Of a stretch of 36,001 bases of DNA, positions 33,157-35,572 are shown in pieces. The translations under genes and the position numbers were made by a program. The stretch is from Nitrospirota bacterium. Lineage in GTDB: Bacteria; Nitrospirota; Thermodesulfovibrionia; UBA6902; DSMQ01. Numbering within the stretch: the first letter of the stretch is position 1; each line of letters starts with the position of its first letter. Where the stretch lies: the NCBI GenBank assembly GCA_016208965.1, contig JACQXB010000005.1:1-36001 (forward strand). The letters run 5' to 3'. The notes beneath the pieces were generated by a model that was not told where the DNA came from, did no database searches, and saw nothing but the letters and a program-made list of their open reading frames with translations.

Positions 33157-33216
33157 ATTCTAACGATCTAAATCAGCAGTGGCTATTCGCCATCCGCTGG
33201 ATTTTTTTGTTAACCC
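33157..33216 (-). other. attC-like recombination site A (end of the ParE/ParD cassette)
   Basis: On the minus strand: R''-like GGTTAAC, then AATCCAGCGGATGGC and GCCACTGCTGATTT as complementary L''/L' arms around GAATA, then the core-like GTTAGAAT. 60 bp. It shares AATCCAGCGGATG and GCTGATTT with site B. Confidence 0.72.
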
Positions 33217-33816: not shown

Positions 33817-33875
33817 GGGAAACGTCTTAAATCAGCGGGGCGTATTACGCATCCGCTGGATTGAGTTGTTAGGGG
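33817..33875 (-). other. attC-like recombination site B (end of the membrane-protein cassette)
   Basis: On the minus strand: CCCCTAAC (R''; the TAA is the stop codon of the preceding gene), AACTCAATCCAGCGGATGCG, a short loop, CGCCCCGCTGATTTAAGA, then CGTTTCCC (R'). 59 bp. The CCGCTGATTTAA and TCCAGCGGA arms match the usual L'/L'' style of attC sites. A stop codon lying in R'' is common for cassette genes. Confidence 0.8.
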
Positions 33876-34393: not shown

Positions 34394-34409
34394 TTTTATC
34401 ACCTCCTAA

Positions 34410-34540
34410 TGCAGAGTTAAGCCCTAGCCCCGTAGGGGCGTATCGGTCTTGAACTCCTTGTTCTCCCGAAACGGAGCGAAGGGAGGACAAGGAGTTCTCG
34501 GCTTAACTCCGCATTCTCCCTGAGCGAAGCGAAGGGAGAA
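34410..34540. repeat. Structured 131-bp module at the attC crossover, copy 1
   Basis: On the plus strand: outer stem TGCAGAGTTAAGCC / GGCTTAACTCCGCA; a small hairpin CCCC-GTA-GGGG in the left half; a nested stem GAACTCCTTGT / ACAAGGAGTTC enclosing CTCCC...GGGAG with GGAGCGAA in the loop; then a separate hairpin TTCTCCC / GGGAGAA with loop TGAGCGAAGCGAA. No gene fits. If it is removed, flanks TCCTAA and CGTTAAGG join as TCCTAAC, the complement of a proper core site GTTAGGA. It forms most of the 5' leader of the membrane-protein gene. Confidence 0.8.
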
Positions 34541-34606
34541 CGTTAAGGATAACCCGCTGGTATGGAGCGCAGCGGAATACCAGTCGGGTTCATCCTTTTG
34601 TTATAC
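34541..34606 (-). other. attC-like recombination site C (end of the DUF218 cassette), split by the structured module
   Basis: On the minus strand: GTATAAC (R''), AAAGGATGAACCCGACTGG, a loop containing CCGCTGCGCTCC, CCAGCGGGTTATCCTTAAC and G (start of R'). The rest of R', TTAGGA, lies at 34409-34404 beyond the 131-bp module. As present, R' reads GTTCTCC. The complementary arms (GATGAACCCG / CGGGTTATCC) with an unpaired T are classic attC geometry. Confidence 0.85.
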
Positions 34607-34614
34607 GCTGTTAT

Positions 34615-35346
34615 TCATTTTGTATTCCAATGTAGGGAATCCCTGAATATCTCCTTTTCGGAATAATTTAATAACTCTTTCAATTCGCAGCAGGTAATAG
34701 AGTATCCATGTTGTCTATGAAAAGGATTTCTCTCAATCCTTTTTTCTTTTAGCTTACCTTCAGTTCCATAAGGGTATTCAGTAAAGGGATCTATTGCATT
34801 TCTTTTTTCGCCCTTTAGAGCTCCCTCTAAATCTACGGGGAGGTTAAAACCATCAAAAACGAACTTTTCTTCCGGCCATTTAATTGCTCTACGGTGTAAC
34901 TCAAATCTCTCTTTCTTGAAAGCCCAACTAACAACTGTTATTTTATCTGGAAATTTTTTTGTACATTCGTAAAATCTACAGATACTAAAAAGAAGATTTT
35001 CAAATGAATCTCGTGCGAATTCTTCAGTGGTTGCTCTCCCTTTAACTTCAGTTCCATACCAATTATAATGCTCAGCAATAAGCCAATAGCTCTGAGCTTC
35101 AGATCTTGGGCCTGCTTCCAATCGAGTTTGTCCTCCAGAAAAAATCAGCAAAGAATTTGGATCATGATGAGCAAGCACTATACCACGACGGATATGCTCA
35201 GTATAAAATGGGGGTTCGCCTTTTTGAAAAGGCTGGAGAAACCAGTTAGCATCATTCTCAGGCTCTTTAAAATCTTCACCTATATAAATTGCATGAGCGG
35301 CAACAGAGATTAAATTATTGAGTTTTGACCAGTTTGTTTGTTCCAT
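34615..35346 (-). CDS. DUF218/YdcF-like protein, cassette-borne
   Basis: This 243-residue protein has the DUF218 pattern: LISVAAHAIYIG at the start, RRGIVLAHHDPNSLLIFSGG, QTRLEAGPRSEAQSYWLIAE, RATTEEFARDSFENLLFSIC, and ITVVSWAFKKERFELHRRAI with the conserved E..R..H trio. DUF218 proteins (SanA/ElyC/YdcF relatives) bind nucleotides or act in envelope processes, but no signal peptide is present here, so a cytoplasmic version is likely. A GGAGGAG ribosome binding site precedes the ATG. It is followed within 9 bases by attC-like site C and preceded by a structured leader. Confidence 0.72.
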   Translation of the reverse strand: MEQTNWSKLNNLISVAAHAIYIGEDFKEPENDANWFLQPFQKGEPPFYTEHIRRGIVLAHHDPNSLLIFSGGQTRLEAGPRSEAQSYWLIAEHYNWYGTEVKGRATTEEFARDSFENLLFSICRFYECTKKFPDKITVVSWAFKKERFELHRRAIKWPEEKFVFDGFNLPVDLEGALKGEKRNAIDPFTEYPYGTEGKLKEKRIERNPFHRQHGYSITCCELKELLNYSEKEIFRDSLHWNTK

Positions 35347-35387
35347 TTTGCGTACTCCTCCTTACTCCTTAATTTATTGGCGTATAA

Positions 35388-35520
35388 TGCGGCGCTGAGC
35401 GGTCGCCCCGAAGGGGCATCCGTCTCCAGTGCCTGGTTCGCCCCGGAGCGTAGCGGAGGGGTGAATCAGGCATACCGCTCAGCGCCGCATTCCTCCCCGG
35501 AGCGAAGCGGAGGGGAGGAA
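35388..35520. repeat. Structured 133-bp module at the attC crossover, copy 2
   Basis: Same plan as 34410-34540 with different bases: outer stem TGCGGCGCTGAGCGGT / ACCGCTCAGCGCCGCA (perfect 16 bp); small hairpin GCCCC-GAA-GGGGC; nested stem TGCCTGGTTCGCCCC / GGGGTGAATCAGGCA with GGAGCGTAGCGGA in the loop; separate hairpin TTCCTCCCC / GGGGAGGAA with loop GGAGCGAAGCGGA. Removing it joins GTATAA and CGACTG as GTATAAC, the complement of core site GTTATAC. It is GC-richer than the surroundings. Confidence 0.82.
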
Positions 35521-35572
35521 CGACTGAATTCAGCCGCCGCTGTAAGCGGTCGGCTGGAATGAATGGTTAGGC
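35521..35572 (-). other. attC-like recombination site D, split by the structured module
   Basis: On the minus strand: GCCTAAC (R''), CATTCATTCCAGCCGACCGC, loop TTACA, GCGGCGGCTGAATTCAGTC, then G of R'. The remaining TTATAC lies at 35387-35382, beyond the 133-bp module. Arms ATTCCAGCCGACCGC and GCGGCGGCTGAAT pair with one bulged base, as in attC sites. Confidence 0.82.

Follow-up and report, generated by a model that had tools for sequence, protein, structure and literature searches.

The two noncoding modules of 131 and 133 bp near the end of the analysed window are very probably complete gene-less integron cassettes, each with an attC of its own, that are moved by the integron integrase IntI. 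The window, a stretch of 36,001 nucleotides, is the entire contig C6 of a draft Nitrospirota genome (G000, 1.67 Mb). The first ~60 nt of each module, read on the plus strand of the window, which is the attC bottom strand, constitute a complete attC that was overlooked in the first-pass annotation, and the other ~70 nt consist of the attC arms copied in inverted orientation, together with a hairpin in which the R box recurs. The first-pass annotation had offered two readings. That of a gene-less structured cassette family was right, as the modules have their own attC and copies lie at both attI and attC, whereas a mobile RNA or single-stranded DNA element targeting folded attC is not needed, copies being found at attI as well. 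A mobile element interrupting an attC was rejected in view of the attC inside the module together with the copies at attI.

Organization and structure of the modules

The cassette array occupies the final ~3.4 kb of the window and its genes lie on the minus strand. They include BrnT/BrnA and ParE/ParD-like toxin-antitoxin pairs, a 177-aa ORF and a 243-aa ORF, separated by attC sites at 33162-33212 and 33821-33871 and by the two ordinary sites listed in Table 1. Each module separates an attC from the cassette gene that follows. The same genome has two full integron integrases as well as several fragments. The boundaries and lengths previously given for the modules were exact, and the modules fill the interval between attC crossover points (marked here by a bar); on the plus strand, the first base of each is the one following 'AA' and the last three are 'GAA', after which comes the 'CG' of an attC. 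In cassette orientation (minus strand), module A reads TTCTCCC...TCTGCA, starting at the G|TT of the preceding attC, and module B reads TTCCTCCCC...GCCGCA. Deletion of the modules yields G|TTAGGA and G|TTATAC on the minus strand, as had been claimed. The proposal that the modules interrupt an R' core between G and TT was correct as to the position but not as to the interruption: as a cassette, each module brings an attC of its own, which makes G|TT an ordinary cassette boundary. The reported GCA ends were also seen, and correspond to an AA|T core replacing AA|C; a small number of copies do have AA|C.

Table 1. Positions in the window of the two modules (probable mini-cassettes), their parts and the adjoining attC sites
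Feature	Position	Strand	Basis
Module A, probable gene-less mini-cassette, 131 bp	34410..34540	-	sequence; fold; model match E 6e-30
attC of module A (bottom strand)	34408..34467	+	R' AA|TGC, L' AGAGTTAAGCCC, tip CCCCGTAGGGG, R'' TTGTTCTCCC
Inverted copy of module A attC arms	34481..34515	+	inverted repeats I7 and I11
Module A terminal hairpin, TTCTCCC-GAGCGAAGCG-GGGAGAA, R box repeated	34514..34540	+	sequence, fold
Ordinary attC of neighbouring 243-aa cassette, directly adjoining module A	34539..34606	-	fold, attC score
Module B, probable gene-less mini-cassette, 133 bp	35388..35520	-	sequence; fold; model match
attC of module B (bottom strand)	35386..35444	+	R' AA|TGC, L' GGCGCTGAGCGG, tip CCCCGAAGGGG, R'' TGGTTCGCCCC
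Inverted copy of module B attC arms	35455..35491	+	inverted repeat I5, 18 nt, 100%
Module B terminal hairpin, R box repeated	35490..35520	+	sequence, fold
Ordinary attC adjoining module B	35519..35572	-	fold; attC score >99th percentile of background

The five structural parts described earlier (outer stem, mini-hairpin, nested stem, closing of the outer stem and separate hairpin) were all found, in the stated order, in both modules. The internal attC consists of R', L', a tip hairpin, L'' with two extrahelical bases, and R''. In module A, the two extrahelical bases are on L'' and the site is weakened by two changes in L'. In module B, L'' is CCG[T]CTC[C]AGTGCC, in which the bracketed bases are unpaired, and the isolated fold shows exactly two bulged L'' bases. 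Isolated stretches of module B and of a further copy on contig C21 fold alone into the attC structure. In each module, R'' is GTTCTCC and the tip is a C-GNA-G hairpin. In 46 of the 47 copies scored with the R'' motif, L' and L'' pair over 9-12 bp across differing sequences (GGAGTTAAGCCG, GGCGCTGAGCGG, GGCAGTTGAGCAG, GGGGCTGAGCCA and others), with the unpaired bases remaining on the L'' arm. The inverted copy in module A pairs with 34451-34467 and 34408-34423, and in module B 35474-35491 is perfectly complementary to 35386-35403. Members of the family are 116-138 bp long and contain no genes, the longest stop-free stretch in any copy being 46 aa. Three features count against the cassette reading: the extrahelical T and G/C lie at a distance of 4 nt, as do the first two of VCR, while many attC have 6-8; the core is usually AA|T instead of AA|C; and the most stable fold of a module hides the attC.

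The ordinary attC beside module A folds with two bulged bases (z -5.0), and its attC score exceeds the 99th percentile of background. Its tip (34559-34583) has the same GGAGCGCAGCGGA loop as the module hairpins. The pattern GAGCGNAGCG was counted 22 times in G000, versus two for the reversed control pattern.

The outer arms of the two modules are 94% and 100% complementary, and their DNA folds reach -36.9 and -50.5 kcal/mol (z-scores -5.8 and -7.1); none of 200 shuffles folded as well. In circular form, 69-81% of the bottom strand was paired in the four copies tried. The earlier observation that stems differ while pairing is kept held across 49 distinct copies, in which 96.5% of cells pair and 31 of 45 pairs carry two-sided changes; in shuffle controls these values were 83.1% and 17 pairs. 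The covariation score was 0.334, versus 0.108 in shuffles. Since the alignment had been fitted to the structure, a control in which the partner was slid by 1-3 columns is more telling, and in it pairing fell to 38-50%.

Of 48 copies, 43 have a GNA tip loop, in which any of the four bases can stand at N. Over whole elements, the bottom strand contains 144 occurrences of GC(GNA)GC versus six of GC(TNC)GC, the type favoured by the other strand. GNA triloops are unusually stable in DNA, and their occurrence on the bottom strand therefore points to bottom-strand DNA, the strand used by IntI. In the outer and terminal stems, by contrast, the few mismatches of wobble type point to the would-be transcribed strand (11 vs 1).

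Distribution, insertion sites and mobility

A covariance model (R1) was built from both modules and the C21 copy. It detected a further copy on contig C27 of G000 and copies in relatives. Named genomes were searched by a pattern scan followed by R1 scoring of the matches, which gave at least about 50 copies. Among the matches listed, the record labels of the carriers were Nitrospirae, Thermodesulfovibrionales, Nitrospinae/Nitrospinota, Desulfobacterales, Desulfobacteraceae, Desulfuromonadales and Deltaproteobacteria. A second model (R2), applied to 396 genomes of the window's phylum, detected the family in 35. The search by covariance model proposed in the first-pass annotation thus returned many copies at the G|TT of att sites, with covarying stems. 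Distant-mode searches of plasmids gave no match to module B or to the copy at L102:475, six pattern matches in viral contigs included none at E<=0.01 with the model, and Rfam at permissive E-values gave chance-level matches only.

Some copies depart from the typical form. One genome (G142) has four 143-nt copies with equal scores (C29:35871-36013, C29:37066-37208, C56:17341-17483 and C56:18840-18982), which form a divergent subfamily at the limit of what the model detects. Two similar, internally deleted copies of ~50 nt (G000:C18:1408-1459, locus L002, and G022:C1:70485-70538, locus L065) keep the outer stem ends and the terminal hairpin, without L''/R'', and still adjoin a conserved GACGAGTGCC-type attC in the two genomes.

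A second, longer family (~190 nt) was observed in G000 (C17:91507-91701, C17:94388-94566, C29:19118-19315, C35:22032-22225 and C35:22811-23000), with relatives in G002 (C41), G004 (C18), G053 (C27) and G047 (C2 and C34). It has the same layout as the modules, namely an outer stem, a CCCC-GNA-GGGG tip, a nested stem and a separate GGAGCGAAGCGA hairpin, and matches R1 weakly (E 7e-6). Its members start at AA|CGGG and end at GGGTAT|C, and the G000 copies are directly followed by attC-like hairpins. In L040 and L049 (G053:C27), L041 (G047:C2) and L052 (G047:C34), the terminal-hairpin loop holds an extra stretch of ~100 nt bounded by TGAACGCC/GGCGTTCA or TGAACCCAGCC/GGCTGGGTTCA.

The matches listed for the first family comprised 71 distinct insertions, counted as module plus flank. 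A generic hairpin score for the downstream attC was uninformative, and an attC-shaped score was used instead, with positions after random AAC as background. By this score, the following attC was at or above the 99th percentile of background in 34 insertions and between the 95th and 99th in five more. Nine insertions occupy attI and have an intI frame immediately downstream (L249, L258, L072, L108, L114, L102, L193, L245 and L233), and five have an attI-like flank (CCAGTTATTA or similar) with no intI detected. Sixteen fell outside those classes and two had flanks too short to judge. Five of the 16 look like attC by eye, not by score (L138, L126, L129, L239 and L255), and L092 shares the intI promoter region of L072, again by judgement and not by score; the rest of the 16 have an ambiguous site or one outside integrons. 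AA is preceded by T or C in 68 of the 71 insertions, and the module is followed by C in 57 and by T in 12; the flank T/C-AA|C/T seen in nearly all insertions is in keeping with the core RYYYAA|C. Both module ends lie at att crossover points, with G|TT at the 5' end and A|TT at the 3' end (G|TT in copies starting with AACGC), and copies at attI or attC share one orientation.

Insertions at non-integron AA|Y sites form a minority, and they count against the cassette reading. In the JAUWZV MAG, one copy lies inside a radical-SAM reading frame (L127:2855-2986), and an identical one lies between secE-like and nusG-like frames (L171:4560-4691). Another copy (L109:1839-1966) is located just past the presumed start codon of a GIY-YIG-like gene. 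Removal of the exact predicted segment at L127, or of one three bases different, leaves the radical-SAM frame open across the joint, where profile matches to Elp3/MnmL-like radical-SAM families agree with the restored frame; at L109, module removal would restore ATGAATAAGCAG, as read from the printed flanks. No intact homologue of the L127 gene was found at E<=1e-30 in 118 genomes of the window's phylum, so the empty site at L127 rests on the restored reading frame. The expectation of empty sites was accordingly borne out by reading frames restored at non-integron sites, but not by an empty relative.

Identical copies within one genome were found at attC (L102:475 and L185:13) and attI (L102:6476), at attI (L114) and attC (L182:3284), and at attC (L108:158) and attI (L108:2668). 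About ten copies, some of them identical at attI and attC, occur in the JACQWO MAG (Desulfobacterales, groundwater; loci L102, L114, L142, L182, L185, L188 and L192), which makes it a good place to seek active movement. IntI was present in 22 of 35 carrier genomes versus 77 of 361 other genomes (Fisher p = 7e-7, kinship ignored). Against this, it was not detected in 13 of the 35 carriers, which are drafts and some of which retain intI relics. The attI site is recombined as a double-stranded site, and attI and attC have little in common beyond the IntI core. A parasite of folded attC would therefore fail to explain the copies at attI, whereas IntI would explain them and is the simplest mobiliser. 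Judging from the sequences, excision and integration are presumably carried out by IntI.

Role of the inverted arm and alternative explanations

Most likely, IntI would cut the folded bottom strand at AA|(T/C), as for any cassette. The module would then enter an attI or a different attC, with secondary AA|Y sites used only rarely. Since the cassette body mirrors the attC, the L'/R' arm would have two partners, pairing either with L''/R'' to give a recombination-competent attC or with the distal inverted arm to give a longer hairpin in which the attC is hidden. In our folds this hairpin is by far the more stable of the two, so the attC must form first or transiently, and it might do so while the 5' part of the strand becomes exposed. 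The long hairpin would then damp re-excision and act as a lock. We lean towards this locking role, but put it forward tentatively, as a possibility and not as the expected answer.

A serious possibility, although not one towards which we lean, is that the inverted arm has no function and arose by template switching at the attC hairpin, its identity being kept by quasi-palindrome correction; the module would then be a degenerate but mobile cassette. Arm-to-arm correction would be expected to give an outer stem such as that observed, in which 763 of 775 aligned positions are Watson-Crick with almost no wobble. However, correction should act on the inner arms as well, and in the same elements these are imperfect; this difference slightly favours selection on the outer stem. 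The existence of a second family with the same layout also speaks against a by-product.

It is unlikely that the cassette, its mobility unchanged, is not selfish but retained because its structure regulates the neighbouring cassette as a promoter, terminator or 5' leader. The position of the module directly ahead of the ribosome-binding site of the next gene would suit such a role, as would the 11-to-1 preference of wobble-type mismatches for the would-be transcribed strand, and many Vibrio gene-less cassettes are promoters (PMC11014356). On the other hand, the GNA-type apical loops are on the opposite strand, copies also occur inside or between unrelated genes, and a scan found no promoter-like or terminator-like site within the modules, which is weak evidence because in-silico promoter prediction failed for such cassettes (PMC11014356).

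Movement in trans by a Y1/RAYT transposase, as for REP-like or MITE-like single-stranded DNA hairpin elements, with a chance preference for att sites, is very improbable. The element is indeed a short, structured, ssDNA-like repeat; in a 61-genome set a RAYT gene was found in 9 of 10 carrier genomes, and RAYT genes lie near elements of either family (G004:C23:855-1187, G004:C18:1030-1353 and L188:2522-2887). Yet RAYT genes occur in 43 of the 61 genomes regardless, those near elements are of different kinds, and RAYT would explain neither precise insertion at both attI and attC nor the complete internal attC. A group IIC-attC intron remnant or an IS1111-attC-like element, both known for their association with attC sites, is extremely improbable for 131 bp without an ORF that also inserts at attI and contains an attC: the modules had no Rfam intron match at the gathering score, and no copy contains an ORF, whereas IS1111-attC/IS110 elements have a DEDD transposase gene with a non-coding RNA region.

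Relation to known elements and implications

Gene-less cassettes have been described in vibrios, where several near-identical copies were found, no homologues were found outside vibrios and selfishness was suggested (PMC1382264), and ORF-less cassettes are known from an oral metagenome (PMC6557892). The modules share with these the lack of a gene, an attC of their own, near-identical copies per array and possible selfishness. In contrast, the earlier examples are confined to vibrios or named individually, whereas here one family is found in several deep groups, and the cassette body repeats its own attC in inverted form. As published, attC sites carry their extrahelical bases on the R''-L'' arm, G16 and T20 in VCR (PMC2727003). 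The internal attC resembles VCR and attC-aadA1 in its R'-L'-tip-L''-R'' bottom-strand hairpin, extrahelical bases on R''-L'' and GNA-type tip (PMC2727003), and differs from them in its mostly AA|T core, its GTTCTCC R'' and a distal inverted arm competing for L'. OTH-22-1 is described as a structured DNA motif resembling attC, reported in several phyla and with RYYYAAC at its 5' end; compared by text description only, the modules are like it in being predicted structured DNA, attC-like and present in several phyla (PMC8632094). Like REP elements (RAYT) and MITEs, they are short, gene-less, structured, multi-copy and presumably moved in trans; unlike them, they target IntI crossover points, contain an attC and have a tyrosine recombinase as presumed mobiliser. 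Gene-less cassettes as such are thus already known, while the cross-phylum self-complementary design appears to be undescribed in the open-access literature, although an earlier description may exist.

The family would be a selfish hitch-hiker of the integron. In its fullest form, which we consider possible but rather doubtful, the proposal is that these are minimal selfish integron elements ('integron MITEs') shared across phyla, each made of an attC and its mirror image, whose bottom strand switches between attC and a locked hairpin, with strand exposure timing movement by IntI. Some cases of 'attC interrupted by an insert' may in annotation be adjacent mini-cassettes. The copies would also provide about 50 naturally occurring, covarying variants of a folded attC, mostly combining an AA|T core with a competing hairpin, which could be used to test how folding competition sets cassette mobility. 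If the cassette reading is right, IntI sustains elements that consist only of a recombination site and a fold, and such elements span several deep-branching groups, at attI, at attC and occasionally in genes.
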